Notes under the pieces: generated by a model | Seen by the model: only the letters and a program-made list of their open reading frames with translations | Told to the model about the DNA's origin: nothing | Database searches by the model: none | Position numbers and translations under genes: made by a program | Shown here: positions 7,209 to 58,540 of the stretch, piece by piece | How positions within the stretch are numbered: position 1 is the first letter of the stretch | Layout of the letters: the number at the start of each line of letters is the position of its first letter | Assembly: GCA_964017235.1 (NCBI GenBank) | Contig: OZ024936.1 | Coordinates: 87,952,537 to 88,016,536 of the forward strand | Length of the DNA stretch: 64,000 bases | Direction of reading: 5' to 3' | Origin: Sabellastarte sp. h YS-2021 | Taxonomy: Eukaryota; Annelida; Polychaeta; Sabellida; Sabellidae

Positions 7209-8306
7209 TTATTGTTTGTGTTTATCTACAAGAACAAATATAAATGGCAATATTGTCACGCTAAATGTGATTATTGCTATACCAATCAACTCTGTCACAT
7301 TAGCATGCCCAGGATGAAACTCACTGAGAAATGTCCTCTGGCTGGCATACAAAGTCACAGTCAAAATGACATTTGAGAGTGCAACACTTGAAATATGCCA
7401 ATATTTATAAACCAAAATACTCAAAGTCCGCGCTGCACCTGAAAATGCAACAAAACAGAACAAAAATATCACGCAGTATCTCCCAGATGGAATTGTATAC
7501 ACACTTTCATGCTTTATTCCTGTCCATATCAAGTTCATAACAAATGACAACCAGCCTTCACACAGTGCGAGCCAAAGCATGACAACAGGCAATGGGTATT
7601 CATTGAGCAGTAACCGATCTGTGTTACCCTCTATGGTCATTGCTATGAAAGCAATAATGATTAAAACATATCCATACCATAAGTTATGTCCTCCATGATT
7701 TTCTAAGTTATCCACATCTGTGCTGTTATTGCCTGATGTTTGAAACTGTAAACTACCATTTATTTTGTTCAATCCACTATCAAGAACCTGGCATGGTGAA
7801 AGAGGAATAGTGTTTTGTTCCACTTGGGAATGCCAGGGTTGCACCACAAGTAATATCCCTACAATAACTAAGAAAGATATAACAACTGACCTCTTTGTGA
7901 TAGATTTTCTATAATAGTCATAGCTTGTAGAAAACAATATGTAAAAGGCTACACCCAAGCCATCAAGATTACCAATAGGCATAAAGGATGCAGCCAAATA
8001 AAATGTTGAGCTATAAATTACATTGGTTAAGGCAGATACAGCAAGCAGATGAATATCTTTTTGGTGCAGCTTCCAAGAATAGTTGCCATGAAAAACAGCA
8101 GGTGTAATCCCAAGGCACTGCAATATGAATCTCAAGCTGATCACCTGAAATATATTCGATTGGATTCCAGACACTTGCGCTGAAATTGTTGACAAAATGT
8201 ATGACATCTGCATAACCACCATAATAACTATGGCAAATATGGTCTTGCATACCAATGCTGACTTTGTAAGAAGTGGCTGTGTCTCATCTTCATATGTTTC
8301 ATCCAT
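7209..8306 (-). CDS. SLC35G-like DMT/EamA-superfamily membrane transporter
   Basis: 365-residue single-exon ORF with about ten hydrophobic segments (roughly residues 18-40, 50-70, 85-108, 113-131, 140-160, 212-232, 240-262, 277-300, 303-325, 338-360). This is the usual two-times-five plan of drug/metabolite transporters. The loop between TM5 and TM6 (about 165-205) holds several N-x-S/T sites. The first-half motif ending in GVAFYILFSTSYDYY and the second-half AARTLSILVYKYW fit SLC35G/acyl-malonyl-condensing-enzyme-like family members. Substrate is unknown. The start codon lies just before a cytosolic DETQPLL stretch that resembles an acidic dileucine-type signal. No break is seen. It is probably a real host gene; the lack of introns is common for SLC35G genes. 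The Polinton lies about 720 bp upstream of its ATG. Confidence 0.75.
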   Translation of the reverse strand: MDETYEDETQPLLTKSALVCKTIFAIVIMVVMQMSYILSTISAQVSGIQSNIFQVISLRFILQCLGITPAVFHGNYSWKLHQKDIHLLAVSALTNVIYSSTFYLAASFMPIGNLDGLGVAFYILFSTSYDYYRKSITKRSVVISFLVIVGILLVVQPWHSQVEQNTIPLSPCQVLDSGLNKINGSLQFQTSGNNSTDVDNLENHGGHNLWYGYVLIIIAFIAMTIEGNTDRLLLNEYPLPVVMLWLALCEGWLSFVMNLIWTGIKHESVYTIPSGRYCVIFLFCFVAFSGAARTLSILVYKYWHISSVALSNVILTVTLYASQRTFLSEFHPGHANVTELIGIAIITFSVTILPFIFVLVDKHKQ

Positions 8307-9024
8307 TTTAGGCTGGTTATGTTATTTTAGACCAGGTTATAAGATTACCTATGCTGGGAACTGTCTTGATTTTTATTTTGATCTTGCTTTATATTTTAGT
8401 TTTCATTGTTCCTGTAAAATAAAACAAAAAGTATGTAACAAATACAATATATTACATTCTTTTCACAACAAATATGACAGTGGCTCCTATTATGAATCAA
8501 TCAGGATCAAAGGAGTATAAGTTGATCCGGTCCAGAATGAATTTGAGCTATGTGGATGTAGGACAGTACCAACTACTAACACTACAATATTCATTTTGCA
8601 AGTTGTGTCTTAGTTTCAAAAGAAAAGAGAAAATCTCAGCAAATGAGGGACAAGCACAGGCAACTTAAGCTCAAAATATTTAAAGACAATTATCCATTAT
8701 TGTCCCTATTCTCCAGGGCTCACATTCATTAACATTCTTATTACACATTTTTTGAGTAAACAACCATTCACTTAGAAAATATACTCAGTACAATGGGGAA
8801 AAGAATACTAAGAGTTTTTAAATTACTGAGACTTTTTAAATTTGTTACAGTGATATAAGAGCAAAGGGCTGAGTAACGCATTTCGTATAGTATTACTTAT
8901 AGATTTGCTATGTTATATGTCACTATTATAAATAAAAATCTTATCATATCTTACCAACAATTAATTAACCAATGGGGTATAAAATTCCCGCAAATAGAGA
9001 ACCCTAAAACTAAATATATAAGTC
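8307..9024. other. 5' flank of the transporter gene up to the Polinton
   Basis: AT-rich, with no convincing exon. It should contain the promoter and 5' UTR of the minus-strand transporter gene. Small frames at 8197-8668 overlap the gene or lack codon signal. Confidence 0.5.
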
Positions 9025-9030
9025 AATGTG
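9025..9030. repeat. Polinton target-site duplication, left (AATGTG)
   Basis: Six bases identical to 27114-27119, directly outside the TIRs. Six-base duplications are the signature of Polinton integrases. Confidence 0.95.
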
Positions 9031-9140
9031 AGTAGTAATAGACGTAGTGAAATCGCTCCACGGATGTGATAGGGAATTGATCTTTAATGTAGTCTCCCAA
9101 CTAAGGTCAATGGAGATTCCAATCACTTCCATATGGAAGC
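9031..9140 (+). repeat. Polinton left terminal inverted repeat
   Basis: 110 bp, the reverse complement of 27004-27113 with a single C/T difference near base 13. It begins with AG, as Polinton TIRs do. The inner end carries the palindrome TCCATATGGA. Confidence 0.95.
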
Positions 9141-9722
9141 CTTCACCTTACAATAGCTATGTATATGTGTGTCTACAGTTTACAATAAAATACTAGTTCT
9201 GCCATATGGAAAGTATGTGTATGGAGATATAAGATACCACGTGGAAGCCTATAGGAAATATTTTTACCCCATATATGACATGTATATATACATACATCTG
9301 TATATTCATATAAGCATATGTATACATTTTGGTGACAACAACAGATGTAAATATGGAAAGAGTTAACATATATGATATATATCTCCATGTGAAGAAAATG
9401 AATTTAAAATCACCAGATGTTTTCCTCACTCTTGTTTTAAAGGAATTTGAAATTATAAATTGTGGACGATTTTTTATGTGTGTATTTTATGTAACCTGTT
9501 TTCTATGGCATTATCCATCACATAGTTTCTCAATACTGAAGGCGGTTTGTAATGTTATTTATTTTAAAATAAGAAATATCTTCAACAGATGGATGGAATC
9601 ATGGCACACATATTCACCATATGCCGAAAGATTGAGAAATCAAATTCACTCAGATATAGATCAAAATTGAACCTAAAAATCTATAAAATGGATGTCACAT
9701 CAGGATTCTACCAATTTTCAAA
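9141..9722. promoter_or_regulatory. Polinton left leader, with TATA box for PolB
   Basis: Subterminal non-coding DNA rich in CATATG and TATATG palindromes. A TATAAAA box at 9682-9688 lies about 35 bp upstream of the PolB ATG, so the 5' UTR would be very short. The small frames at 9169-9670 on both strands lack similarity to anything I recognise and are treated as chance. Confidence 0.45.
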
Positions 9723-12700
9723 ATGAATTATAAATGTTCTTACTGTAATTTTTCTATGCTTAAACCTAGTAACTTGGTTAAGCATGAGAAAATATGTACC
9801 TTTAATTCTAAAAATAAGAAGAAATGTGTCAGATGTGATAAAGTGTTTTATTCATATGATGACTTATTTAAACATTCCAGGACATGTGGAAAGTATATGT
9901 GTTTTCAATGTGATGTTCCATTTTTATCTACAAAGGCACTAGATTATCATATTTTAACAAGACATAGAAATTCAGAAGATAAGAAGAAAACTTACAAATG
10001 TGCAATATGTAAAAAAATTTGTAAAGATCGAAAGGAATTGTATTCTCATAGACTAAACCAACATGGTGGAAATGGTAATAATAATCAGGATCTACCTCCA
10101 TTTATTCGTGATCCTGGAAATGATGAATTATCAGAGGTTTATAATACTAACAGGAAATATATTTTTGCAGAAGATGAAACTGGAGAACTTAAGAAAATGT
10201 ATAACTTTACTACCAATGACCTTCATAGAGGATACAGGGAAATTAGAGAACATCTTACAGAAATATACAACAAGCAAACAAATGCCTATAGAATCAATTT
10301 TTCGTTTGGAATGATACTGCAGAACACTAATACCCAGGAATATAGATACTATATACCTTATTATAATAACAAAGTGTTATATTTTTCATTTACAATATCT
10401 AATAGAAAAAGTATAAATTTTTTGATGCATAAATTAGCTAGAATTGATGTAATTCAACAAGCAAGAGCAGTGAGACCTTCTACTAACTGGATTCTAGTTG
10501 CCATAACCAATGTACAATATACAATATTTTTAACGGATTTCCCGCTTGGAATTGCAGAGGAACTTCCCTCCTACCTGAAGACTAATAAACATTTGAAGAC
10601 TTTATATATTAATAAAAGGATAAATGAACCCTATAAAGATAATTTATGTTTTTTTAGATGTTTAAAATATCATTTTAAGAATATTAATAATGTACTTTAT
10701 TATCTGAATGGATGGAGAACGTATAATTGTTTACCCGTATTTTCAAATAATAATGTTAAATTTAATGGTGTAACATTGGATGATATCTCTCAACTTGAAG
10801 ACTGTTTCAATGTTAAAATTAAGATATTTAATATGAATCCTAATGGTGCTGTAAATCTCATTTTTGATTCTATCAATGAAAATAAAGATGTAATGTATCT
10901 TAATATTTCTGATAGTCATTTAAGTTACATAACAGATTTAAAGAAATTTATTAAGAAATATGAATGTGAAAAATGTAGTAAAATGTTTAGAAATGAATGG
11001 AATCTGAAAAGACATTATGGATCATGTTATGAAAGGACGAAATATATATTTCCTGGTGGTTTTCATAAAAATGACCAGACTATTTTCGAAAAATTAGAGT
11101 ATCTAGATATTTTTGTACCTTCGAATCAAAGATTTTATCAGAAATTTTCTGTATGGGATATGGAAGCAATATTACTTAAATTAGATCAAAGTGTGACTGA
11201 AAAACTTCATTGGATCTCAAGACATGAACCGATAAGCGTGAGTATTGCCTCAAATGTAGACGGTTATAATAACCCAAAATGTTTTGTTGATTCATCTTCT
11301 AAAAATTTAATTACAAAAATGATGGAATACCTGAATCAAATAAGTGAAGTAAATGCCAACAATCAAAAATATGAATATAAATATGTTTTTGATGTGCTGG
11401 ATCAATTGATCGAAAGGTATTCTGATACCAATGAAATCGAACAAGATCAAGAAACTAATGAAATGGATATGTCCGAAAATATTCATCCTAAAATTACTTC
11501 TCATTTCATTTTAACTATTAATGATATCAAAACGAAATTCGAGAATTATTTATGTCAATTACCTGTTGTAGGGTTTAATTCAGGGAAGTATGATATAAAT
11601 TTAATAAAACGGGAAATTATGCTCTTTATTTCCGAAAAATATAAAGATAATGAAATATTCACTATTAAAAAAAATAATTCCTACATATCTATATCAACAC
11701 CTCACCTGAAATTTTTAGATATATCTAATTTTCTAGCACCTGGATGTTCTTATACTCAATTTTTGAAGGCCTATGGATCTGATATCAGTAAAGGTGTTTT
11801 CCCATATGAATAGTTCGATTCTCATGAAAAATTATCTTACCCCTCTCTACCCCCACCTCAAGATTTTTATTCAAAAGTTTCTAACTCAAACCCTATCAAA
11901 TCTGATGAGGACTACTCAAAGCTTTTGCAAATATGGGAAAAAGAAGGCATGCAAACATTTAAGGACTACTTAATTTATTATAATAACCTAGATACAGGTC
12001 CTTTCTGCATTGCCCTTAAAAATTTTATTGACATATATTCATCTCAGGAGGTAGACATTTTTAAAGACTTCGTCACTCTACCAGGAGTGGCTAGGAAAAT
12101 GTTATTTAATTCCTCAGATAGTAAATTTTTGCTAATTAATTCAGATAATGCTGATCTTTATTATACTCTGAGAAAAAATATTGTGGGTGGTCCTAGTATT
12201 ATTTTTTCAAGATACCACGAAAAAAATGTAACGAATATTAAAGGTATTGAAGGTAATAAATGTAAAGCTACTGTAGGTTATGATTGTAATCGTCTATATT
12301 CATACGCAATTAAACAGGAAATGCCTACGGGCGTATATGTCAGAAGATTATCCTCCACAAACTTCAAACCAGAGGTAAGTGAAAAATACATAGAATCTTA
12401 TGTTTGGATGGATTTCCTAATGAAAAAGGAAAAAATTAAAATTTTGCATAAACTAAATAATCAAAGAGAAATTAGAATAGGAAACTATTTATTGGATGGA
12501 TTTTGTATTCAAAATAACTGTATATGAATATCATGGATGTTATTATCATTACTGTTCTGAAGATTGTCCAACCGTGAAGAAAATTAAATCTCTTAAATGG
12601 CTTGAAAAAATTAAGAAAGTGCAAAGGAAAGACCTGTTATAAATATGTATCCATACAAGAATGTATTTTTAAACGTGATATTAAAGAAAAATGTGATCAC

Positions 12701-13950
12701 TTATATGATTTATATTTGCCATCATATTTTAAAAAGAACCGATCAACTTTGTCCACTGAAAAAATTATCAAAGATATTTAAAATGGAAGCCTCTTTGGAG
12801 CTGTTGAGGTCGACATTAAGGTTAAGTCAGAATACATTCAAAAATTTAAAGAATTCCCTGCTTTCTTTTGTACCTGCAACGTTCCAATGGATGCTATTGG
12901 TGAACATATGTTGGAATACTGTAATCAAAATGGCATTTCCTTTGACTATAAAAGACTCCTAATTAGTACCAATCAAGCTGAAAGAATTTTAATTGCAACA
13001 CCATTATTGAGATGGTATTTAAAGAATAATTCAGAGATCAGCAAAATATATCAAATAATTGAATATCAACCTAAAAAATGTTTTAAAAATTTCATTGATA
13101 AGGTTACTGAATTTAGAATTGAAGGAGATAAGAATCCTGATAAAGCCATCATTGGTGATACTACGGATCAGTATTAATGGATGAAACGAAACACACTAAT
13201 GTTAAATATTGACAAGTAAATCTAAAATGTCTAAAATTATAAATTCCTCAACATTCAAGGCTATGGAAGAATTGAATAGTAATATTTTTGAAGTAGAATC
13301 TTATAAAACTCGCTTAACCCTAGATACCCCAGTTCAAATCGGATTTTTCATCTTACAATATGCCAAATAAAGGATGTTGGAGTTCTATCATGACTGCATA
13401 GTTAAATATTTCAATCCTAACTCTTTCGAATTAACTGAAACCGACACTGACAGTATATACATGGCAATTAATAAAGAAAATATAGATGAATGCATAAAGG
13501 TAAAATATAAAAAAATATTCGAAAATGAAATTTTTCACTCTTTTCACGATCTTAGCTATACCCAATGGTTTCCAAGGAGATGCTGTGCTACTCATATTGC
13601 ATCAGGAAGGCGTGAGGTTGGAAGATTCAAATTAGAATTCGAGGGTACAAAAATGATATCATTGTGTTCAAAATCTTATATAATCGAAAATGAGGAAGGA
13701 AAACAAAAAATTTCATGTAAGGGTGTCGCAAAAAAACCCCTTACCAATACAATGGAAAAATTTGAGCAAACTTTAACTAGTAAAAATGTCACCAAATCTA
13801 AGAATATTGGTTTCAGGATTAACAAATCCATTATACATACATATTCACAGGAAAAGATAGGTTTGAATTATTTTTATTGCAAAACAAAAGTCCTCGAGGA
13901 TGGGGTAACTACAGAACCTCTAGATATAACAGTGTCACCATGGGAGGAAA
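9723..13950 (+). pseudogene. Protein-primed family B DNA polymerase (pPolB), broken
   Basis: The N-terminus has four C2H2-like fingers (residues 4-25, 35-55, 60-81, 93-114), then an OTU-like stretch with DNLCFFRCL (about 306-314) and a later SHLSYITDL His (about 398), then a fifth finger (413-436). The exonuclease follows: ExoI VWDMEA (477), ExoII GFNSGKYD (617), ExoIII YYNNLDTGPF (near 11975). Polymerase motif A is YDCNRLYSYAI (near 12280), followed by GAVEVDI (12800). Motif C is TDTDSIY (near 13444), followed by a KISCKG segment near 13710. Motif B, expected near 13165-13200, is missing. Lesions: in-frame TAG 11811-11813, frameshifts near 12515 and 12605-12640, TAA 13175-13177 with scrambled sequence, TAA 13368-13370. 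The role in the family is element/virion DNA replication with a protein primer. Confidence 0.92.
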
Positions 13951-14431
13951 AGATTGTACTGGTAGATGATATTCATAACCCTCTTTCAAATTTATATCAA
14001 TGCAAACTGTCATACGATGGCTTTTGTTTTTATTTCTCCGAACACCTTTATTTTTTTTAGTATCTAAAGATGCAGAGCAATATGAATTGACTAATCAGGT
14101 TTTAGATGAAACAGATCCCTTTGAGTTAGAAATTCTTATGAAAGATTTTAATAAAAGCTATCAAAAAGCAGATGATAGAGAGAGAATTATGAGATTTGCT
14201 ATTCTTCAGAAATTTACTCAAAATCAAAAATTCAGAAAAAAACTGAGGGAATGTTCCAATGGCTACATAGCCTATAAACAGAGCTCATTAAGTAAAGAAG
14301 ATATTTTCTTTTGGGGTATAACCACATCCTCAAGTCTTGTTCCTGTACTAAAACCATCATCTTTATCAGGAAATAATCTGCTGGGAAAAATTTTGATGGA
14401 TTATTCCAAAAAAATAGACTCCCTAATGTAA
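13951..14431 (+). pseudogene. NADAR domain fused to the PolB C-terminus
   Basis: After the usual PolB end (VLEDGVTTEPLDI) the same frame continues for about 45 residues and enters a NADAR (DUF1768/YbiA-like) domain: PLSNLYQCKLSYDGF and SEHLY, corresponding to the family LSNF...EhaYQ segment. The frame then slips by one base in a T8 run near 14050. The second frame supplies the rest: DRERIMRFAILQKFTQN, EDIFFWGI and NNLLGKILM, all family hallmarks in the right order and spacing. NADAR enzymes are known to cleave ADP-ribose N-glycosidic links, including on guanine in DNA and RNA, and relatives act on a riboflavin intermediate. A role in reversing ADP-ribosylation of element DNA or evading an NAD-based defence is my inference. 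There is no start codon of its own at the boundary, so a fusion is favoured over a separate gene. Confidence 0.85.
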
Positions 14432-14614
14432 TTTTTCATTCCTATTGTATATAAAACATTGAAATATGGAATACATTCAAAATTTTATTCTATACTCTCT
14501 GCATACAATTATATTGTTAGAACTATACATTCATTTAATATGATGTTAAATTATCATGGTTTAAAAAAAAAATGTTAGAAAATAAAAAGAAGGATTATTT
14601 TGTTTATTTTTTCA
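14432..14614. other. Convergent 3' intergenic region in Polinton
   Basis: AT-rich stretch between the rightward PolB-NADAR and the leftward protease. It carries AATAAAAAG at 14580 and AAATAAAC-like signals on the other strand, plausible polyadenylation signals for the two convergent transcription units. Confidence 0.35.
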
Positions 14615-15079
14615 CTACTGCAATTTCGAATTTTTTTTTAAATAGTCAGTATAAAATTTTATTACAATAAATTCATTTTCTTTGTATGTGTCACCGAAAC
14701 GGTCAAGTACGGTAATCATGTCCTCATTACGTGCACTGTAGTAACTATAAAACCATCAGAATAATCCACAGGTATTAGTATACAATGACTGTAATCTTTT
14801 ATTGTTATATTTATATGTTATTTTTTTCTTGAATAAAATGCTAATTATATGTTCATCAGGTTTTCTTCCTATCGAGTCAAAATGTTCAACAATATGATTT
14901 GAAATAAAATGCAAGACAACCCAATGACTTCCTTTCTTTTCAGAACTATCTAGATTAACTACTATAAGGGATGGATAATCTAAATTTTCTGGAATTAAAT
15001 CAATTGGATATACTCCTTTAAAATTTTTTTTTATTTTTTAATCTTTCATCATAAGATCCATTATTTCACTAGTATCCAT
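14615..15079 (-). pseudogene. Adenain-like maturation cysteine protease (PRO), two nonsense codons
   Basis: One continuous frame from ATG 15077-15079 to TAG 14615-14617 is interrupted by a TAA after 13 codons and a TGA three codons after the catalytic Cys. Motifs in order are MDTSEIMDLM, LIVVNLDSS, GSHWVVLHF (catalytic His), VEHFDSIGRKP (acidic partner) and NTCGLF (catalytic Cys). This is the Ulp1/adenovirus-protease fold, which processes capsid precursors. Length is about 154 codons, close to other Polinton proteases. It starts 5 bp after the capsid stop. It is non-functional unless both stops are read through. Confidence 0.88.
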
Positions 15080-15083
15080 TGTC

Positions 15084-16390
15084 TTACTGAATATTGACGT
15101 TTCTTGTATGATCTATTGTTAATATCTCAGGAAATTTTCCATATACTAAAACATTTATAGTTTCTGCTAAAGCTTTTGAAAATGTCATGCCTACCTTAAG
15201 GTGACCTTTCATAGATTTACTCATAATCTTGCCACTTAGATAACTCTGCACATCAAAGAGAAATAATGTATAACCCTTGTCATATTCCAGTAGATTAATT
15301 ACCAAACCTTTCTTTTTATTGTACTCATTATCTAATAAGCTAAGATAAGATGAAACAAAATCACCAGCCTCAAAATTTGGACTTAAGGCTCTATTTGGGA
15401 CTGACTGACCATCTACTGTAACCTCTAAATAATTTAAATTCATATGATTGAAGAAAAAAGGATTTTTGTCATAACTACCAGAATATGCTGAATTTGAAAC
15501 TAATGCTATTATTAATTTGCTAGGTATTTTACCGTGATATATATTGTCTGTCATGAAGCTTAATGAACCTGCAGCCACAGTGAAACTTTTGATGTCACTT
15601 CTCCAGAAGGGATACAGTGCAGTACTGATTTTTAATGCCTCGTTATGAGCAACTATCATTTTTGGGTCTAAAGAAATATGACATATTTTTAGAATCGCAT
15701 CTGTAATTTTTAAATTATAAGCTTTTGTTCCATTTCTCAATAACCTGAAAGGATCTGTAGATTGAAAAAATTTGAAATTAATTGATACTCCATTTAAAAT
15801 AGCCCTATTCTGCCCATTTGAAAAATCTGAAAAAAGAACGCCCTCAATATGCGCCTCCTCTTCATCTTTTGTGGGTCTAGATCTTTCAGAAAATCCAGTA
15901 TTCCCCCTAGATATGTGGCAACATTAAAATAACCTGGTAAATCCTTAAAATAGAATGCAGCCTGTGCCTGAGAATTTAGCATATCACTACTAGATTGTAA
16001 TAATAAATCTATCATAGCCTTATATGGGTAGTTTACTCCAACATCCGCAGAAACTATTTTTTGATTTAAGGATAAATCAATCTGTCAAAAAATTGAATGC
16101 AAAGTAAAATTTACAGGTCCTACTTGGTCACTATTTGCAGTTGGATGTCCATTTAGATCTCTTTCATCTTTAATTTTTTCTCCATTTGGTCCTGTAATTA
16201 CATATGTAACATGAAGTTTACTTTTTGCTAAATTTATGTAATCCATAGAGGTACCTGGTATATTAAATTCAATTATTCCATTTTCCGAAATCGCAGCTAC
16301 AGGATTGTACTCAACCCAGTATTCCTTAGTTATGGAACTATCAATTGGAGGAGGACTAAAAATAGATACAGAAGTTTGAACTACATCCAT
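15084..16390 (-). pseudogene. Major capsid protein (double jelly-roll, hexon-like), broken
   Basis: The N-terminal frame opens with the typical Polinton capsid start (YWVEYNPVAAIS...NGIIEFNIPGT) and reaches GPVNFTLHSIF, where an in-frame TGA (16085-16087) occurs. The same frame continues with QIDLSLN and NYPYKAMIDLLL. A frameshift near 15905 moves to the frame that carries AILNGVSINFKF, the middle domain and the C-terminal signature FSKALAETINVLVYGKFPEILTID. Total about 435 residues, slightly short for the family but covering both jelly rolls. Forms the pseudo-hexameric capsomers in related adintoviruses. It overlaps the upstream basic-protein gene by 10 bp. Confidence 0.93.
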
Positions 16391-16773
16391 ATTGTTTTGT
16401 AGGTACTTGAAACTTTAGGTTTCCTCCTTTCCTTTGCTTTTATTGCAGCTTTTTTCCCTATTTCTTTTTTAATTTTTTTATTTCCCTTTCGTTTTTCCTT
16501 CTTCTTATATTTCCTCTTTTTATTGTTATTCACATCTCCCCTACCTCCGGTTTGATCAAATTTCCTTTTTTTAGCTCTATTTATATTTGTTTCGTGTTTA
16601 ACCTCATTTTTAGCTTGCTCTACAGCCTGTTGAGTGGAAGTTACAACAGTTACATCTAAATTCTTATCCCCGCTATCATTCGAAGTATCATATCTCTTAT
16701 CTAACACATAAAATTTCTTCTGATAAGGTATTACTCCTCGTATACATTTTTTACAAAAATTAAGGTAGTTCAT
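16381..16773 (-). CDS. Small Lys/Arg-rich basic protein
   Basis: 130 residues, uninterrupted. Residues 60-122 are extremely basic (runs such as KKRKYKKKEKRKGNKK), resembling nuclear-localising, DNA-condensing core proteins of adenovirus type. I do not recognise a specific family. Its ATG overlaps the minor-capsid stop (TAATG) and its end overlaps the major-capsid start, so it belongs to the morphogenesis block. Likely a virion core or packaging protein; this is inference from position and composition. Confidence 0.7.
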   Translation of the reverse strand: MNYLNFCKKCIRGVIPYQKKFYVLDKRYDTSNDSGDKNLDVTVVTSTQQAVEQAKNEVKHETNINRAKKRKFDQTGGRGDVNNNKKRKYKKKEKRKGNKKIKKEIGKKAAIKAKERRKPKVSSTYKTIWM

Positions 16774-17186
16774 TATGCTCGTTTCCTGAAATGAAGTGTA
16801 ACGGACACTGTGGCAGTAAGAGTGGATAATAACTTTAATTGGTTATCCTTTATATATATTCTTATTCGACTTAAGCTGTTAATCTTTATTGGAAAATAAA
16901 ATATTTTAGGAAAAATATAGGTAGATGAGGCGTTTGATGGCATGAGGCTACGTAATAATGGTTCTAAAGAGTTTCTAACATAACTGTAATCAACTATATC
17001 AGAAAATATATAACATTTTTCTGATATAGTTTCCGAGCAGAAAAAGTCACATATTCCAACCTCCCATTCACCAATTAATTGGACTCTTTCTTTAAGTTCT
17101 ACAATAAAATTAAAGGGTGCATTGTCTTGATGATAAGATAAAGAATCCTCGGAAGATAAGAAAATGAAGAAATCCTTTTGTTCCAT
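16773..17186 (-). CDS. Minor capsid protein (penton-like single jelly-roll)
   Basis: 137 residues, intact. Begins FFIFLSSEDSLSYHQDN and has VQLIGEWEVGICDF, then FSDIVDYSYVRNSLEPLLR, then IRIYIKDNQ and ends in TVSVTLHFRKR. These are the conserved blocks of the Polinton minor capsid (PY), predicted to form capsid vertices. Starts inside the integrase chromodomain tail in another frame (88-bp overlap). Shorter than many homologues, but both end motifs are present, so probably complete. Confidence 0.88.
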   Translation of the reverse strand: MEQKDFFIFLSSEDSLSYHQDNAPFNFIVELKERVQLIGEWEVGICDFFCSETISEKCYIFSDIVDYSYVRNSLEPLLRSLMPSNASSTYIFPKIFYFPIKINSLSRIRIYIKDNQLKLLSTLTATVSVTLHFRKRA

Positions 17187-18445
17187 TTTTCCCTTAAAAG
17201 ATTTATATCCAGTTTATTTTTTATAGATTCTACAGTATCTTCTAAAATCCACGAATTGAACTTCTTCGGCCAACCTTTCCACTTCACTAAAATTTCCTTT
17301 TTCTTATTTCTTGTCCTTTTTTAAAGGATTTTTTCTATCTTATATACTATATCATTATCAAGATACACTATTTGAAGTTCAGGTTCATAGAAATAACCCT
17401 CTATGATATCGTTATTGTAATCCTTTAGTTGGTACATAGGTTGATTTTGGTTAATTTTACGATCAGTAATAGTAAAAATTTCTCCACTCCATTTTTCTGA
17501 GTATTCACGGTCAAAAGTTTTCTTTATATATGGAATTTTAACTCTATCTGATATATTATATTTAAATTTCTTTTTTCCTCGGACACCACTGATTAAGTTT
17601 TTTTTAATTTTTTGTGCTGAGAAGTAAGATTTTGGATAACTTATAATGGCATATTGATTTCTCCAGAGCTTATAAGGATCTGATTTTTGTGCTTCCTCAG
17701 GTGTCATCTGAATACTTCTATGTGTTGATTTATTATATCCATCTGTTAGATCTGATAATATATCAATCCATCAAAAAGTTTCCCTGTTTGTGAAATACTT
17801 AAATATTTTTAATTTAATTGTCTTTATAACACGTTCTGCATAATTTGCCTTGGTTTCGTAATAGGTGAAGATATGAACAATATTTTCTTCCTCAAGTAAC
17901 CTCTCAAAATCTTTATTTTTATACTCACTTCCTTCATCAGACCTCAGTTTCTTTGGTTTAACCCCTTTCTCATCTATTAATCTTTGGAAATTTTTCGTCA
18001 TCTCATATCCCGAAAGGGTTTTTAACGGAAAACTATATAAAAATCTGGAAAAAATATCAATGAAAACTGCAAAGTAACTGTATCCATCATTGTAATCTTT
18101 ATATTTAACCATATTAGCCGTATCACTATCCCACTGGTAGTTCAATGAAAATGCCAGTACTCTAGGTCGCTTAAAATCTCTGATAACTGGATGGTGTGAT
18201 GTATACGATTCCTGCATACTTAACCATTTCTTTAAGTATTTCGGAGACACTTTAAACAGTCCATCCCTTTTTATTTTATAATATATTTTATAGAAACCAC
18301 TGAATGATACTGGACTTGTAAGATTGTAATAAAGATTATGAAGGTAGCTATTCACATCCCCATTTTTAGAATTTTCTTTGCCATTCTTATAACCAAACGG
18401 GTTTTCTTCCTTTTCTTCTACCCCCTTCTCCTCTCTGCTGTCCAT
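17099..18445 (-). pseudogene. Retroviral-type integrase with C-terminal chromodomain, two nonsense codons
   Basis: ATG 18443-18445 has a good AAAATGG context. N-terminal LYYNLTSPVSFSG and WLSMQESYTSHHPVIRDF are typical of Polinton integrases. DDE core: QWDSDTANMV (D1), LRSDEGSEY (D2), YYETKANYAERVIKT (E). In-frame TGA 17771-17773 follows RETF, after which the same frame continues into YNKSTHRSI...MTPEEA. After TAA 17321-17323 the frame enters the chromodomain motif ILVKWKGWPKKFNSW. All three segments are in one frame, so only substitutions are needed to explain the breaks. The chromodomain presumably guides integration to marked chromatin. The conserved catalytic triad is visible but the protein is interrupted. 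Confidence 0.93.
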
Positions 18446-18734
18446 TTTGAATTTTTTGGATTACTTTGCTCTCTGGTAAACCTGGAGGTGGAAGAATCTT
18501 GCTATTTTTTTCATTTATAAAAGATTTTTCATCAGAAAAATCTCTTTTATAATCTTTATCAGATGCAACTTGCTCAATGAAATCGTCAGGTTCTTTCACA
18601 GACATTAACTGCGAAGGATTTGTCAAATCACTTTTAACTTTATTTTCCAGTGACTTAGCATTTTCTTTATTGGACCTCATGAATGCTTTGTACCTCTCAT
18701 ATTGCTCGGCAGGAATCATAACGTACTTATTCAT
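18387..18734 (-). CDS. Conserved small Polinton protein next to integrase, function unknown
   Basis: 115 residues starting NKYVMIPAEQYERY, a pattern I associate with a small protein beside the integrase in other Polintons/adintoviruses. A charged helical middle follows, then PPPGLP, then a basic tail that overlaps the integrase start by 59 bp in a different frame. Its ATG overlaps the previous gene's stop (ATGA). No enzymatic motif is visible. Intact. Confidence 0.6.
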   Translation of the reverse strand: MNKYVMIPAEQYERYKAFMRSNKENAKSLENKVKSDLTNPSQLMSVKEPDDFIEQVASDKDYKRDFSDEKSFINEKNSKILPPPGLPESKVIQKIQNGQQRGEGGRRKGRKPVWL

Positions 18735-19038
18735 TTCAAAATTTTATCTAGGTATTTTCTGAGAGTAAATAATAGTTCACCTATTTCTCTATGATGTAAT
18801 CTCGCTAATCTTCTTCTTTTTTCCTCGAATTTGATGAATTTCTTTAGAAATTTTAACCTCTGAAGAAATAGTCCTTTTCTTTTCTTACCTAAGGGTAAGC
18901 GAAATACGTTGTAAAAATTTCTGCTATTGCTTTTAAAGTTTGATCACTGGCATAGGACAGTAATTGCTTGTTTAAAGATTGATTTTTTTCTAACAATGAA
19001 TTAATGTAATTTTTAGATTTCAAAAGATTTCTAGACAT
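18731..19038 (-). pseudogene. Small basic conserved Polinton protein, frameshifted
   Basis: ATG at 19036-19038. The first frame reads a helical segment (LLEKNQSLNKQLLSYA...LKAIAEIFT) and terminates near 18895. One base away, the sequence continues with LPLGKKRKGLFLQRLKFL, RRRLARLHHREIGELL and stops at 18731-18733. The combined protein of about 100 residues has the helix, basic, helix layout of a recurrent small protein in Polintons of unknown function, possibly a capsid or DNA-associated component. Lesion: single-base shift near 18900-18915. Confidence 0.6.
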
Positions 19039-19087
19039 AATGCCTCCTCGTCAAAATATATATTTTGAAAATTTTCAACTCAGAATC

Positions 19088-19863
19088 TTATTTATATATT
19101 ACCGTATCTTCAAATGGAAATATATGGGATCTTAACATGAAACTGCTGTCACCCTTTGGAGACAAATCAATCAAGAGATAAGAAAAGGGCAATAATGTTG
19201 CATCTTCATACGCAGACCTAAGTTTATTCCTAATTCCTAATTGTGTTCCTAGGTATCTTATTTGTTGGCAATCTCTAGGATTCTTAAAAAGAATGAAGTA
19301 ATGACTATTCAGAGAAATATCCCTTGCATACTTTCCTTGGTGAAATAAATTTTGTAATATTAAATATATTGAGAGATTTTTATGATGAGATTCGCGAGAA
19401 AAAAGATTAGCAATAAATGGATCATTGAGTGCTGTTATCTGCATGTCGTCTATAATAATTAAATTGTGATCACCATTACTTTTATTCTTTCTTCTGTAGG
19501 TAATTCCTGTAGGTAAACTCTTTGTTCTCCCATAAACTCTTCAAAAGAACTCTGCCAAACTGCATAAAAGTAATATATTTTGTTTATACTTTCAGTAAAC
19601 ATCTCATCTAAATGTTTCAATAAATTAAGTGTGAAATAAGTCTTTCCAGATCCAGTAGGTCCTGAAATTATGGCTGTACATGGTGCATTAAAACGTAAAC
19701 CATCCATATGAAGTGGAAGGAGATTTACAACACCTTTGATGACTACAATATCTTTACTACCCTGTTTCCAAAATAAACAGACTGCACTCCAATGGTTGCC
19801 AGTATTTATACCTATTGACCAGGCTAATCTATTAGTTGCTGGCAAGGTAGTTTTCACACACAT
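19088..19863 (-). pseudogene. A32/FtsK-like DNA-packaging ATPase, frameshifted
   Basis: Walker A GPTGSGKT follows CTAIIS. After one frameshift near 19465 comes Walker B NLIIIDDM, then the sensor-like NLSIYLILQNLFHQGK and NSHYFILFKNPRD, the usual Polinton packaging-ATPase order. Would pump element DNA into the capsid. The longest frame starts at 19863, but a TATAAA sits directly before that ATG. The Met at 19705-19707, 10 residues before CTAIIS, is a more likely start. The divergent membrane-protein gene begins 89 bp away, so the region may be a two-way promoter. Confidence 0.9.
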
Positions 19864-19951
19864 TTATACGCTTTGTACAACAGGCTGTGAAAGATACTTA
19901 AGTTATTTTACCAAAAATTAGATGAAAAAGGGATTGAAAGATATATGAAAT
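19864..19951. promoter_or_regulatory. Candidate bidirectional promoter in Polinton
   Basis: An 88-bp gap separates the leftward ATPase and the rightward membrane-protein gene. It contains TATAAA on the minus strand at 19862-19868 and an AT-rich stretch on the plus strand. Transcription start sites are not known. Confidence 0.35.
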
Positions 19952-21029
19952 ATGGCAATGATATTCATTTTTATTCTGAGCATTACATTTATTGGAACTG
20001 TTAAAGGTTACAGCTGTGACCAGGGACAATGTTACTGTTTTGACAATCGGATAACCTGTATAGATATGACAGGACCAAAATTCAGATACAGACTGAATAT
20101 CAATATTTTATACATGGAGCAGGTTCAAATTTTGGATTTTGAATCAATTATTAAGAATCTTCCTAATCTAGAATATCTTACAATGATGAACATGAGATTC
20201 TTCAGATGTGAATGGTTAAAAGTCATACCATCAGGGATTAATTTATATACAAATATGTGTGTCTCATCCTACGTCTGAGGCTACTAGTGCTACTGAATCT
20301 ACTACTGATGCATCTTATTGGACTAGCAGTGGTGAGTATTTTCATGATGATTTATTTAGTCAAAATTTTTGAGATTTATTAGGTTTTGAATGACTCCTAT
20401 TGGTTCCAAAATGTCCTATGTGTAATTTTTTTATTATTATTATTATAGAGAGAGAATTTATCACTAAAACGACTTCTGCAAACACAAAGGATGATTACTC
20501 TTCTACCTTAACCACTAGAAAAGAAATTAGTGAGACTAGAGATGAATTTTCAACTACGACTTTCAGGTTCAAGAAACGCACAGATCCAGTCTTATCTTCA
20601 AAATCGAATATCTCAATAGATCCTACTTTTACTGTAATGATTAAAACGAGTTCTTCAAAATCAAATGATGGTCATTACTCCACCTTAATCTCTACGAAAG
20701 AACCTAGTGAGGCTGGTGATGAATTTTTAAGCAGTGATCCCACCTTATCCTCAAAATCGGATATCACAATAGATCCGGTTCTTACTACAATGTCGGATCA
20801 TAATCCTCAATCCAAAGAACCTAATTTCTTTTGGATCTTTATTCTGATCCCCTCAATCTGTCTGATATTAATTCTAATGGCAGTAATTGCATGGATATTT
20901 TTCAAATGCATTATGAAAGGGACATGTTCAACAGAAAGTCAAGTGAATAACAGCTCTAATGAAGATATTGAAATGACAAGCGTTTTTAATGAGCATTTTC
21001 AGGAAACTTCCTTTGATGGAGCGAGGTAA
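19952..21029 (+). pseudogene. Spliced type I membrane protein with LRR-like ectodomain and Ser/Thr stalk
   Basis: Exon 1 is 19952-20331. It has a signal peptide (about residues 1-19), a Cys cluster C-x4-C-x-C-x6-C like an LRR N-cap, then LRR-like ILDFESIIKNLPNLEYL. A one-base frameshift in a TG run near 20257 breaks it. The next frame gives an S/T-rich stretch up to the donor (G|GTGAGT). The intron 20332-20448 ends in a (TTA)n tract plus AG. Exon 2 (20449-21029) joins in phase and contains two diverged copies of a stalk repeat (DY/HYSTL...DEF...SSKS-I-IDP), one TM helix (FFWIFILIPSICLILILMA) and a 40-residue acidic tail. Not a known Polinton core gene. A cell-surface receptor-like or envelope-like role is only inference. 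Confidence 0.65.
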
Positions 21030-21482
21030 GATTTAAAAAGAAATTTATAACTGATTTACTTCTGTTTATTCAAACTTAGTCTACTTTTTATATCTCCCTC
21101 AGAAAGATATATTTTCCTTCTTAAGGAAAATATAAGCGACTTCCGATTATTGTCTCAAACGTTCATTTTTGAAGATTTTTTTTTTAGCAATTACATGGTA
21201 CCACAATGTTGTCTACATAGAGAGGAATTCCGAAATACATCAGAAATATCATCATTTCTAGGTAATTCTATCGAATTTTTTCCTCGTAGATTATTAAACA
21301 TGAGGGGGTTAATGACATTCATTTTCATTGATCAATATCGATTCTACGCATACAAGGTCAGATAGTTCATTATAGTACTAGAAGACAAGTATTTATTTGA
21401 GGATATTTTCTTGACATCACAGCATTGAATAATATCAAATCTCTCGCTATATTTTTTTGCAAATATAAGAACTCTGCTAAAT
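21030..21482 (+). other. Gap with possible exon remnant
   Basis: A 71-codon frame at 21150-21365 has Cys pairs and a leucine/phenylalanine pattern (FLGNSIEFFPRRLLNMRGL) faintly like an LRR segment of the neighbouring membrane genes. It lacks a signal peptide and partner exon. It may be a decayed third paralogue. Confidence 0.25.
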
Positions 21483-22927
21483 ATGGGAAAAAATATTGTA
21501 TTATTCACAACTTTGATATTGTTCTTGAGTGACTGCTTTCTGAGAAGGGAATGTAGCAATGTAGAATGTCAGAAAGATGGAACATATGGAATTGCAATAA
21601 AAAATTTCCAGGGAGCAATGGCTCTCAAGGAAAATTTCCGATTTTGTTCCAATAACCAGGCTGTGGTATTAACTTTTAAATATTGTAAGGTAGAGCAATT
21701 TCTCATCTCAAGGCAAGAGTTAAGGATATTCTATCCAAAAGTTAGAACAATTTCATGGCAATGTCTTGGAAAGTGCTTAATAGAAGAGAATGAGGATATT
21801 GTTAACATTTATGGATGTCAAAAAGGTAAAATAATTATTTATATCCTTCTTATATTTTCATCTATATATACAAGGATCCAGTTTCGATGATCAGAACCTA
21901 TATGAGGACTTTATCATATTACCATCGGACCAGATCTTTAGGAAAAACAAGATAGTATGTATTCATTAATATTGAACTCAGATTACCCAAAAAATATGAA
22001 AATGAAAACTGATTCTCGCCTTATAGTTTTTCTATTTTAATGTCAATAATATATGTCAATGATATGTAACTCAATGTTATAACATTCTTTAAATTTTCAG
22101 TCCAGAAGATGGAGCCAGTGACTGAGGGAATCAGTAATGACCATACTATCAGTGTAGATACGACAGATAATGTATCATATTCTTCAAAATACCAGTATAA
22201 ATTATTCAGTCTCTTTGTCATACCAATATTTGGTATTTTCCTCGCTGTTATAATTGCTCTATTGAGAAAATATGGATGTGGAATAATGACAAATTTAGTG
22301 AGGAGAATTTCAAATTATATTATGGATATAAATCACCAGAATTTTGCTGACCAATCGATTCGCACATCCACCTCTGTGAATGAAATGTTAGATGGAATAA
22401 GTACAGAGCCTTATGAAGATACTACTACCTCAAGCCTAAACTGGGATCCTCATTTTCCTATAGATGCTGAAATTGTGACTCAAAATATTAATGAGATAGC
22501 TGCTGATTTATCAATTTCATCTCAGAATGGAATATTCATGAATGATCAGATGACTCAAACCTCTGACCATTCATTCTCAATTGACAATGTCTTCAATGAC
22601 AGTATCATTGGGATTAACCTCAAAACTGATTTATCCCTGATTGAATTGTACCCATCATTTACAGCTGGAATACAGTTAGATTCATCAGATTACGATGAGG
22701 ACCTTACTGAGCCAAAAACATTAGCAAAAATACTGGAAAATGATATGAGTAACATTGCAGATAACCAAAGTGATATGAGTAACATAGGAGATAACCAAGA
22801 TGAAGGTGTTGATAGCAGTCCAAATGCAGAGAGCAAAAATGGTACAGTGATTTCAGATGAAGATATGAACGAGGTCATTGTAGAAGGACATAGTTGTACA
22901 AGATCGGAGCTGATCTATAAATACTAA
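21483..22927 (+). CDS. Spliced type I membrane protein, second copy, intact
   Basis: Exon 1 is 21483-21825 (donor AAAAG|GTAAAA) and exon 2 is 22101-22927 (acceptor TTTTCAG). They join in phase 1 to give 389 codons with no stop. Residues 1-20 form a signal peptide. The ectodomain (to about 147) has spaced Cys residues and short hydrophobic strands resembling the LRR-like cap of the 19952 gene. The TM helix is about 148-169 (LFSLFVIPIFGIFLAVIIALL). A long, acidic, Ser-rich cytosolic tail of 220 residues follows, with a tandem DMSNI-DNQ repeat. I do not recognise a family. The general design matches the preceding gene, so the two are probably diverged duplicates or partners. Intactness amid decayed core genes is notable. 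Confidence 0.65.
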
Positions 22928-23694
22928 AAAATATCTTTGTAATACGGCATTATAACAGATGAGGAGTATAGACGACTTTGAAAAAAAGACAAAACTTGAA
23001 AATAAAAGTAGTTTATTAGAATACCAGAATTTTTCATATTATTATCATTATTATTATTATCACAAACATGTATTTATCCGTGTCTATATGAAGTGTTTAT
23101 TTCTTTTGACATTCAGATATGTTTTAAATTTATGATAAAGTAAAGAAATGTTACTAAATATACAGAATTTTTTACAGAATTAAACTTACATCATGTTATA
23201 ACATTCTTTCTTTGTTTATCAGTATCTACAGGTTAAATTAAATGCATGTAACCTCCTAGATATATATAATATTACTCTGAAAAGAAACATGTGATGCTAC
23301 ATTTAGAATTTCATGTTAATTAATACTCCAATTCACTCTAAGGAATTCCAATCAAATGCAAAATCAATGAAAAAATGGAGGTGAAATATTTTAAAGTTTA
23401 TGTACAATCTCACATTTACACTTTCATGTTAATTAATAATCCGATTCACTCTAAGGAGGAGACAAAGATTGCATTACAGCATTTCAATCAAAAAATCGAG
23501 GTGAAATATTTCAAAGTTTATGTACAATATCATAATGCACTCCTTCAAAGTAATGATTCTTATAATCATTGCGGTCTCATGAATATTAGTTCATTAATTC
23601 CTGTTTCTATTATATCATTACATTCGACACACCTCATGGGTGAGTTTCTCAGTTTATTCAGGAGGAAGGATGAGCAGATAGTGCAAGAAAAATG
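22928..23694. repeat. Polinton spacer with 113-bp tandem duplication
   Basis: Non-coding. About 23311-23420 and 23424-23530 are diverged direct copies (TCATGTTAATTAATA, ATTCACTCTAAGG and AGGTGAAATATTT-AAAGTTT recur with a spacing of about 113 bp). The 114-codon frame across them is a by-product of the duplication. Confidence 0.55.
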
Positions 23695-24658
23695 TCAACA
23701 TGAGGCCATAAACAGCTGATCATTCGGAAAATGGGCCTTACAGGAGCAACATCTCAGACTCCCAATTTTATTGTTATAATATTCCTTCCATTCAGCACAA
23801 AGTAAGCTTTGGGCATCTGTAGGAGGGGAATTTAACATAAAAGCACATTTAAATGCTTCTGCAAGGTCATCATTAGATAAGGCTGAAAGAAGGTCATTTT
23901 CATAATCTTTTTTAAGATAAACAATGATAGGTACCCAAACGAATAATGATGTTTTTGAATGTGAGGACATGTTGACAATATAAGGCTTGGTAAATAAATT
24001 TTGAAGAAGTAGGACCCTACAACAAGGACATTTTTTCTTCTCTTTTCCCTCATCCTTCTACAACCTATATAACTTTCCTGAACATTGTGAACATAAGAAA
24101 TGTGAACAAGGGTTTGTGAGAACTATTTCCTCCTTTTCTAGTCCTTCTTTACAGACACAACAGCTTGCAGATGACAGTTCTTCAACCATGTAGCTCACAA
24201 ACTGGGGAAATTTGGTCCTATAAAAATATGGGGAGGTGTTTTAGTCTTCCTATTGCAATAAAAAATCATTGTTACAATGAGTAATATTACAGTTTTCAAA
24301 CAAAATTAAAATTCTGCTGGATTAGACATGAGACTGAGTTCAGAAATGAATGTATTGATTTTGAAAAAAATTACTTTCTTTTTTATTTTGAAAAAAAAAA
24401 TTACTTTCTTTAACTAGTCAATCCAATGAAAACATGAGAGCTGATATCTTATGACATATAAAATAAAAAATTTTGTACTCACATTATGTAGCTTGGAATC
24501 GTATCGTTGAGAAAAAGAATCACTGTCATCCCTTCACGAAACGAACCCTCCTCAATCAAGGAGACTAAGTTCAACAAGGTGGCTGCTGTCGAAACTATGA
24601 GGCTGGGATAGTAAGCCGCAAATTTTTTGCCAAGGAAAGCATTGATAAAGGCCTCCAT
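23695..24658 (-). pseudogene. Spliced RING-finger protein with one in-frame stop
   Basis: Exon 1 is 24483-24658 (Met at 24656-24658, 58 codons, hydrophobic helices). The donor is GTGAGT at 24477-24482, the intron is 265 bp, and the acceptor TATAG ends at 24218. Exon 2 (23695-24217) joins in phase. It gives a C3HC4 RING at about residues 78-125: CCVC, then PCSHFLCSQC, then CPCC. An in-frame TAG (24058-24060) lies between the second and last Cys pairs. The frame then continues through the last CxxC and a 110-residue tail ending with more Cys pairs (CCSC). RING proteins are E3 ubiquitin ligases. It lies beside a BIR gene on the same strand, which recalls the BIR+RING layout of inhibitor-of-apoptosis proteins split into two genes. 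Confidence 0.7.
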
Positions 24659-24994
24659 TGTGTTATACTCCTATTTTTTTTTCCGGTATCCTAATGCACT
24701 TCTTAACTTTGTTTTAAACTAATATTTTTTCTTTCCTTCACCCAGACATTAGATTATGGCTACAGAGTTTGCATTTATAGCATATTTTAAGAATTAGATG
24801 TAAGTCAAAAGTGTGCAGTATGTTATCATTATTCTGTTACAATAGGTGATCTAGTTTATATTAAACTACCTCACAACTACCTCACATATTTTCATTAATT
24901 GTTCGACTTAATGGTACAATAAGATTTTGAGGTTAAAGTGGGATTATAAAAATCTACCTCACCTAATGGTGGCATTTCTAAACTAATGCATTCC
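24659..24994. other. Spacer between RING and PC4-like genes
   Basis: AT-rich and non-coding. It should contain the promoter of the leftward RING gene and the 3' end of the PC4-like unit. Nothing specific seen. Confidence 0.4.
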
Positions 24995-25174
24995 TCACAT
25001 GTCTTATCAAAGTCAAAGTTGGGGTTTAACGTCCCGTTCAACAGCCAGGGTCATATTGGGACAGGTCCTCAGCATTGCCACTTGTGGGACTCGAACCCAC
25101 AGAGGTGACAGCCTATGATTAGATGCCAAACTTGCTAACCATTAGGCCACCGAGGACCTTCACATGTCTTATCA
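24995..25174 (-). mobile_element. tRNA-derived SINE nested in Polinton
   Basis: Body 25010-25159, flanked by a perfect 15-bp target duplication (TCACATGTCTTATCA at 24995-25009 and 25160-25174). On the minus strand it has a tRNA-like head with A box TGGCCTAATGG and B box GGTTCGAGTCC. The shared tail (ACGTTAAACCCC on the minus strand) also occurs in diverged form in the other two SINEs of this window. Inserted in the 3' end of the PC4-like gene. Confidence 0.88.
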
Positions 25175-25557
25175 TGTCCCTCTATATTCTTATCTATAAG
25201 GCAAGATGTAGCGGTGTAAACCTCTTGATGAGACAGAAAAATTTCGTCAAAAACTCTCAAGAGTTCAGACCATTCAGGGAATTTTAAAGATATACCTTTT
25301 TGAGTGGGAAAAATTTTCCCACTCAGGGATTTTTCCCAAAGTCTTATCCCTACATTCTTATAAGGACTGTTACAAGATATATGATAACCTGCACCAATGT
25401 GGTATTTGACATTAATGTCTTTCTCACCATTATTAATCCTACTTATTGGTTCCTTGATGAAATCTACATAACTTAGTATAACTATCATTTTTGAAATATT
25501 TAAATGTACACCCTCATTTATGACCTTTCCATTTGTCATTGTTATATTATAGGTCAT
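25135..25557 (-). CDS. PC4/p15-like ssDNA-binding protein, C-terminus altered by SINE
   Basis: 140-codon frame. Residues about 50-105 match the PC4 (transcriptional coactivator p15) fold: YHIGAGYHIS, VGIRLWEK, PTQKGISLKFPEWSELL and FDEI, the last parallel to the KGISL...W..L signature of PC4. PC4 proteins dimerise and bind single-stranded DNA in transcription or replication. The last nine codons come from the SINE (ending CEGPRWPNG), so the original C-terminus is displaced but the fold is intact. Starts 4 bp after the BIR stop, on the same strand, so possibly co-transcribed. Assignment from pattern only. Confidence 0.65.
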   Translation of the reverse strand: MTYNITMTNGKVINEGVHLNISKMIVILSYVDFIKEPISRINNGEKDINVKYHIGAGYHISCNSPYKNVGIRLWEKSLSGKIFPTQKGISLKFPEWSELLRVFDEIFLSHQEVYTATSCLIDKNIEGHDKTCEGPRWPNG

Positions 25558-25561
25558 TCTA

Positions 25562-26041
25562 TTACTGAAGCATTGGAAAAAGCATTAAAATAAAGTCACA
25601 ATATGGAGAATGCCTCTTGTGTTCTTCTATTGCTAAATCAAAGGCTTCCCATTCATTCAAACATATATTACACCAAGGACATATGACCTTGTCTCCTTCT
25701 CCTGTGTAAAAAAAACCTGCCCTGGCTAGTTGATCCCTTCTGACAGGATGAGCTTTTGGCCATAATTTAAAGGTTGCATATCTATCATCATATTTCCTGA
25801 GTGAATTAACATCCATCGACTTATGTAGAGGTCTTTGCAGATTAGACCTTTGTGAGGATTGCTGAGGCTTATCTGTAGATAAGGCGAAACCAGTATGATA
25901 ATGATGAGTATTGGTATCCTTTGCTCTCGAGAATCCGTTTAATGAGAGCCCACTGCTCGGTTTTGAGGCAGCAGTACATGTTGCTTCATTAGAATCTGTA
26001 GATTCCTTATTATCAGAACAATTCCTTGTGTTAGCAAACAT
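25562..26041 (-). CDS. BIR-domain (inhibitor-of-apoptosis-like) protein
   Basis: 159 residues, intact. Residues 1-80 are a low-complexity Ser/Thr/Asn-rich leader. Residues 85-152 form one BIR: RYATFKLWP, LARAGFFYTGEGDKV, CPWC (C121, C124), W131, EEHKRHSPYC (H141, C148). All four zinc ligands are present. BIR proteins bind caspases or IAP antagonists. A single-BIR protein without its own RING resembles baculoviral or survivin-like reduced forms, although a RING protein is encoded 0.9 kb downstream. Probably captured from a host IAP gene; molluscs have large IAP families. Whether it inhibits apoptosis is inference. Confidence 0.88.
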   Translation of the reverse strand: MFANTRNCSDNKESTDSNEATCTAASKPSSGLSLNGFSRAKDTNTHHYHTGFALSTDKPQQSSQRSNLQRPLHKSMDVNSLRKYDDRYATFKLWPKAHPVRRDQLARAGFFYTGEGDKVICPWCNICLNEWEAFDLAIEEHKRHSPYCDFILMLFPMLQ

Positions 26042-47096: not shown

Positions 47097-47145
47097 AAAT
47101 TAAAGCATTCTGTTCACTATTTACAACGGGGCGGTGACCCCTTCC

Positions 47146-48709: not shown

Positions 48710-48738
48710 AGTAAAATAGAAATAAAACTAAAATAATA

Positions 48739-54646: not shown

Positions 54647-54868
54647 TGTTGCGGGTTGGCATTTAGGTGCCAACCTTAATCATTCCTTCACCCCTATTTT
54701 TGTATCACCCCCGTCATTTAGTGGGTTATTTAAATGACACATGGCCGTTTCTGATTGGCCAGTGTTTTGTCCTTTGCTTTGGTCAAGGGGATAATGGCCA
54801 GATTTGAACTGGCAGCCGACAAGACAAGTTTACATTTTACAAAAGCAATTTAAAAAAAATTTTTTTTT
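54647..54868 (+). repeat. Element 1 repeat A1
   Basis: Starts TGTTGCGGG followed by an 8-bp perfect hairpin (54654-54675). Repeated at 60510-60727. Confidence 0.92.
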
Positions 54869-54933
54869 CTTTTACATCTATTTTAGTATACTATTGTCTT
54901 GTCTCTACCCTCACATATTTTGAGCTCATTGGT

Positions 54934-56116: not shown

Positions 56117-56135
56117 AAAATGAGTAACCCTGAGC

Positions 56136-56831: not shown

Positions 56832-56947
56832 CCTTTTTGGTGTTATCCCACTCTCCCCTTTAAAAATTTATACTGGTGCTTCAACAAATAATCAAAAATT
56901 CCCTGATCCATTGCTAATCAGTTCGTGCGTCAAGATGTCATAATTTC

Positions 56948-58501: not shown

Positions 58502-58540
58502 ACTTAACCTGTTTGAATCATAACATTTAGTTTTTCAGCC

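Follow-up and report, generated by a model that had tools for sequence, protein, structure and literature searches.

Does the DNA polymerase of a Polinton end in an enzyme that removes ADP-ribose from DNA? The question is raised by 64,000 nucleotides from the sabellid annelid Sabellastarte sp. h YS-2021 (assembly GCA_964017235.1, contig OZ024936.1, positions 87,952,537 to 88,016,536 of the forward strand), a stretch that we call the window. The original prediction, made from the letters alone, was that the family B DNA polymerase (PolB) of a Polinton in this window is fused at its C-terminus to a NADAR domain, and that the fusion is an eraser of ADP-ribosylated DNA or a counter-defence linked to NAD. 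The fusion is supported by a sequence profile, intact copies, distant relatives and a structure model; the eraser and the counter-defence are not borne out by the residues of the domain. We consider it rather probable, though well short of certain, that an inactivated NADAR now serves a protein-primed polymerase as a C-terminal module without catalysis of its own.

A NADAR-fold domain at the end of PolB

The polymerase has a protein-primed, phi29-like family B core, and its C-terminal domain has the NADAR/YbiA fold. In the window, the PolB frame that bears the DTDS motif (13371-14057, + strand) has PLSNLYQCKLSYDGFCFYFSEHLYFF at its end, and the motifs DRERIMRF, KFTQN, WGI and NNLLGKILM all lie in the frame 13979-14428 (+). 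A run of eight T (14051..14058, +) is the point at which this copy changes frame, so that PolB does continue into NADAR after a slip at the T run, as had been proposed. The last residues of PolB share their frame with the N-terminal part of NADAR, including the equivalent of E43 (in SEH); together they occupy 13938..14057 (+) and align with positions 1-40 of a Polinton-NADAR profile. The rest of the NADAR-derived domain follows in another frame (14051..14428, +), with an E value of 6.9e-57 against the same profile. The open frame 13979-14428 also matches the Pfam NADAR profile (PF08719) at positions 53-161 of 163, with E 2.5e-11 and 44.6 bits against a cut-off of 35.1, and since it scores above that cut-off the match is not a chance one. 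When the two pieces of the window were compared on their own with solved structures, no meaningful match emerged.

Comparison by tblastn with an intact relative from the same genome (L041, 1609 amino acids) resolves the window PolB into five pieces in three frames; identity is 95.1-98.3% for the four that belong to PolB and 92.9% for the fifth, 14051..14428. Residues 1-955 of L041 correspond to 9660-12524 (95.7% identity), which takes in an N-terminal piece with C2H2 zinc fingers (9687..11810, +; zf-C2H2 E 2.2e-10), followed by an in-frame stop, and a second piece in the same frame (11814..12524, +). The third (12517..12636, +; 97.5%) and fourth (12638..13162, +; 98.3%) pieces are each in a different frame, and the C-terminal piece with the DTDS motif (13209..14057, +; 95.1%) continues without a frame change into the start of NADAR. 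The window copy is therefore broken at several sites and not at the T run alone; it looks dead.

Intact copies exist elsewhere. The genome (1.79 Gb) was searched with a query made of the PolB end and the first part of NADAR, and 150 of 1348 candidates were scored. All 150 match this query, and 147 of the matches extend to query residue 225 or beyond, within NADAR, the other three ending at residues 178-196. Copy numbers of the fusion, like those of NADAR itself (150 of 2705 candidates scored), are lower bounds because of this sampling. In the 20 top-ranking loci (L021-L040, headed by the window itself) a NADAR signal lies 3' of PolB in every case, and both share one open frame in 11, one of which reaches profile position 72 only. 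Eighteen loci were then picked from the 150 scored rows for open frames of at least 1583 amino acids. Each has a single PolB and NADAR frame of 1583-1700 amino acids, and a stop between the two parts, which would separate them into two genes, was found in none; having been selected for long frames, these loci prove that intact copies exist, not that they are common. They comprise several families, with PolB identity down to 55% and domain identity down to 32%. The Pfam profile matches all five intact relatives tested, above the cut-off in L041, L050 and L053; L052 (29.7 bits) and L056 (30.7 bits) have E below 1e-6, yet lie under it.

The abundance of other NADAR-bearing frames in this genome would suit another origin: the NADAR could have been inserted on its own, say out of a retrotransposon that carries one, the fusion being an accident of the window copy. 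However, the fusion is common to all 18 long-frame loci and extends to more distant PolBs, and the other NADARs of the genome differ in sequence and retain active-site residues. A separate insertion is thus scarcely credible, and the accidental arrival of a retrotransposon NADAR is ruled out by the intact relatives.

The T run itself could suggest a switch, by recoding or phase variation, yielding PolB with or without the domain. The corresponding run is the site of the frame change in eight of the 20 best matches, the window's locus included, and its T8 form presents an in-phase U-UUU-UUU run followed by a stop. However, seven of the eight carriers have open frames of just 229-758 amino acids and are therefore broken elsewhere too (the exception, L028, has 1466), and run-length slippage, common descent or assembly error would be simpler. 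We regard such a switch as highly improbable.

The tails of five more PolB loci of this genome (L059-L063) are weakly NADAR-like and were left out of the NADAR counts. The Polinton profile gives E 9.6e-7 in one of them and no match in L060 and L061; a wider profile reaches 8e-20 on these tails, but takes in the PolB end.

Beyond this genome, 668 database proteins match the PolB core. NADAR is precomputed in 21 of the 120 listed; of the 128 proteins that were fetched, 26 show it at their C-terminal end in a local profile search. The listed PolB matches that are named by organism come from bivalves (Mytilus, Pinctada, Solemya, Tegillarca, Pecten and Argopecten), none with a NADAR annotation. Among IMG/VR viral contigs no relative was confirmed with three window pieces and a 50-row alignment (A1) as queries, a search from which near records may have been omitted. 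In a FastTree phylogeny of 139 PolB cores, the window falls in a clade of 21 rows with support 100, comprising 16 NADAR rows and five without a clear PolB end, and further NADAR rows are spread over several other, deep PolB clades. The NADAR label needs at least five changes on this tree if rows without a clear end are excluded and 11 if they are scored as lacking it. As the deep branching order is poorly resolved, two histories are compatible with the tree: the tail may go back to one old gain followed by losses, or to several gains.

Other tails occur on related polymerases. A conserved tail of about 133 amino acids was observed in 16 of the 128 database PolBs (P0051, P0061, P0084 and others), which lie close to NADAR rows on the tree and were left out of the NADAR counts. 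Perhaps it is a further decayed NADAR: it resembled NADAR in the local profile search, with a profile that includes the PolB end and with most matches at both ends only. An AlphaFold2 model of one such protein (P0112; predicted local distance difference test score 87.2) gave no NADAR in the 50 listed rows of either structure comparison. Another PolB, P0015, carries a different C-terminal domain, PF14216 (precomputed), which we take to be DUF4326. Since this protein ends in PF14216 and not in NADAR, the C-terminal end of PolB may be a site of domain exchange.

Active-site residues of the domain

What the domain could do depends on residues known from characterised NADARs. According to the available parts of PMC11543638, E43 and E125 of the P. 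nicotianae enzyme bind the distal ribose, with K50 binding the phosphates; the equivalents in E. coli C7 NADAR are E88, D171 and K95, and efficient hydrolysis of guanine-ADP-ribose requires K95 and D171. In the structure 8bau, ADP-ribose is contacted by K50, by R79 with G78 and V81, and by W89, and position 125 is His in phage NADARs and Asp in the BC4488 family (same source, same parts). Residues were placed here through the 8bau chain, whose file numbering is that of the paper plus 2, and are given in P. nicotianae numbering. The comparison covered 12 of the 18 Sabellastarte PolB loci (near-copies dropped), the 26 of 128 database proteins with a C-terminal profile match and nine canonical domains. 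E43 is present in all nine of the latter by construction, because they were picked with a motif that demands it; a recount over all 18 PolB loci and over 20 other NADAR loci of the genome (L001-L020) used no such motif.

By this recount E43 is present in all 18 PolB loci, and K50 and E125 in none. The other NADAR loci, which as high-scoring matches are biased towards canonical domains, have E43 and K50 in 20 of 20 and E125 in 19 of 20; ten of them are unique, and nine of these have all three residues. The complete set occurs in none of the 38 PolB-linked rows. Five database rows resembling those of the worm have E43 in five and neither K50 nor E125 in any (P0004 ends before position 125), and the 21 rows of other clades have E43 in one, K50 in eight and E125 in one. 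Allowing Asp or His at position 125 adds none of the 12 worm rows, all of which also lack K50, and gives three of the 21. In P0010, K50 and E125 are present and E43 is absent. The W89 column of the Sabellastarte PolB loci holds K, D, N or S in one alignment and gaps in another; as judged from these alignments, which are locally unsure, W89 is absent under either. The structural G-x-N motif is retained in all 12 worm rows.

A working eraser, one that clears guanine in DNA of ADP-ribose either before or after the polymerase passes, would accord with the NADAR profile and fold and with E43 in all 18 loci. Moreover, the available parts of PMC11543638 report that the eukaryotic NADARs tested act on guanine-ADP-ribose in DNA, and that a guanine-modifying enzyme, CARP-1, exists in shellfish. 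Nevertheless, other residues stand at the K50 and E125 positions in all 18 loci and the full set is found in 0 of 38 rows, and for this reason neither the eraser nor an NAD-linked counter-defence is supported. The positions replaced are those whose equivalents, K95 and D171, are required for efficient hydrolysis in the E. coli enzyme. The eraser was rejected as the main explanation on these residue grounds, and we think it improbable.

Selection and the possible role of the domain

If the domain were a functionless relic carried along with PolB, its rapid change would be expected: between families it is 32-47% identical while PolB is 55-65% identical. Ratios of nonsynonymous to synonymous change (dN/dS), estimated by the Nei-Gojobori method in 12 pairs of intact copies, argue otherwise. 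For the domain they lie at 0.09-0.34 in nine pairs whose dS exceeds 0.15; for the 600 PolB residues that precede it, at 0.05-0.15. Selection therefore still maintains the domain, if less strictly than it does the polymerase. The open frames of the domain in all 18 selected loci, its occurrence across several deep PolB clades and the invariance, within the window's clade, of the residues described below also speak against a relic, which appears unlikely, if slightly less so than an eraser.

The reading that we favour, reuse as a non-catalytic module, can be put as follows. The PolB of the window's Polinton clade is protein-primed and made of many domains, and its final 140-160 residues adopt the NADAR fold. 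This domain would have been gained before the Polinton families of the genome diverged. In the window's clade it has lost two of the three hydrolysis residues along with others that hold ADP-ribose, yet the fold persists, several polar residues are invariant and purifying selection continues. The domain would then pack beside the polymerase core and touch DNA, the protein that primes synthesis or some further replication factor.

Several observations weigh against this reading. In most pairs the dN/dS of the domain is some two to three times the PolB value (one pair has equal values); it rises to 0.35-0.66 in the three pairs whose dS is at most 0.06, and four of the nine pairs with low ratios have a dS above 1 in one or both parts, near saturation. 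Across 19 unique rows of the window's clade, a set that omits P0003 and P0004, there is no variation at N25, at E43 or in the triplet YKQ, whose first residue falls on the E125 column; on this sequence pattern these residues could form a rebuilt pocket instead of a structural patch. Other clades keep K50 in 8, W89 in 17 and D130 in 17 of 21 rows, so that ligand binding may persist in some of them.

The main rival therefore is a domain of changed chemistry or of binding only, in which N25, E43 and YKQ would form a rebuilt pocket for a nucleotide, an adduct or an ADP-ribose derivative and the classical reaction would not take place. The invariant polar residues round the old active site and the partial retention of K50, W89 and D130 are in its favour. 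However, the window's clade has substitutions at most of the positions that hold ADP-ribose in 8bau, and the domain is not known to bind a ligand. We hold this to be possible but doubtful. A more specific form, in which the pocket is a sensor of modified nucleotides, ADP-ribose derivatives or the protein-linked DNA end, is more tentative still.

The surrounding element and known systems

On the strand opposite to PolB lie a retrovirus-type integrase (17771..18457, -; PF00665 rve, E 3e-12), an adjoining chromodomain piece (17099..17317, -; PF00385, E 2.1e-6, above cut-off) and a putative packaging ATPase (Pox_A32-like) in two frames (19088..19860, -; PF04665, E 2e-4 and 0.0098, both under the curated cut-off, the better match being weak at 21.3 bits against 22.8), an arrangement as in a Polinton. 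Terminal inverted repeats were sought in 8300-27000, where three short imperfect inverted pairs were found, none assignable to the element's ends. A frame of 278 amino acids (15084-15920, -) has no Pfam match. Elsewhere in the window there are a BIR (inhibitor of apoptosis) domain near the element (25562-26062, -; PF00653, E 9.4e-22), frames that by eye resemble DIRS-type retroelements (44558-48727, -, and 54808-59515, +) and two almost identical frames of 127 amino acids about 1.9 kb apart (59941-60324, -, and 61860-62243, -).

The published protein-primed PolB plan of Polintons and adintoviruses is TP-vOTU-EXO-PALM (PMC11071308, available parts). The window's polymerase resembles it in its phi29-like core and N-terminal zinc fingers, and the element in its integrase and chromodomain; the window's clade differs in the added C-terminal NADAR-derived domain. 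Neither PMC11071296 nor PMC11071308 uses the word NADAR in its main text. With the NADAR/YbiA family (PF08719; 8bau, 2b3w) the Polinton tail shares homologous sequence and fold, but it is fused to a DNA polymerase, lacks K50 and E125 in the window's clade and has an incomplete E43, K50 and E125 set in 38 of 38 PolB-linked rows.

Two polymerases offer parallels. The vOTU domain of adenovirid protein-primed PolB is inactivated and has been proposed to be repurposed (PMC11071308, available parts). This is a precedent for the pattern, an enzyme domain kept on a protein-primed polymerase despite lost catalytic residues, although its fold is different and it is N-terminal, whereas the NADAR-derived domain is C-terminal. 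An Oxyrrhis polinton-like virus likewise has an extra domain, an SF1 helicase, fused to its PolB, but on the N-terminal side (PMC12721341, available parts).

NADAR in retroelements is already known: the accessible parts of PMC12477816 describe it in ORF1 of Tx1, a long interspersed nuclear element (LINE), in Crassostrea gigas (Pacific oyster) and in the Gypsy Pol of Ectocarpus. These too are mobile-element proteins with a NADAR domain, but they belong to retrotransposons and are not DNA polymerases, and those of the Sabellastarte genome retain active-site residues. In that genome NADAR is hugely repeated, with 2705 candidates, of which 150 were scored and all 150 exceed the cut-off. Stand-alone frames of 167-179 amino acids occur among L001-L020, and other frames of about 450 amino acids with a C-terminal NADAR resemble LINE ORF1 by eye. 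NADARs are also reported from giant viruses, nidoviruses and annelid and bivalve picornaviruses, the available parts of that source making no mention of Polintons (PMC9503650), and from molluscs (PMC11125620, available parts). In the literature searched, which excluded Repbase and most subscription journals, no paper joined NADAR with Polinton or adintovirus, NADAR with Maverick returned other subjects only, and Polinton with mollusc and DNA polymerase B returned nothing.

Many Polinton polymerases, from several deep PolB clades, have retained a NADAR-fold domain at their C-terminus, one that lies outside the TP-vOTU-EXO-PALM plan as set out in the available parts of the source cited above. 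If the favoured reading holds, an ADP-ribose hydrolase fold has been turned into a polymerase module, in a genome that also holds NADAR genes, some of them retrotransposon-like, with the active-site residues kept. The PolB tail and the canonical NADARs of this one genome form a natural pair for asking what role NADAR has in mobile elements. Should the pocket prove to be a sensor, it would couple the start or the advance of Polinton replication to a host chemical signal, and would be a new use of the NADAR fold within a replicative polymerase.
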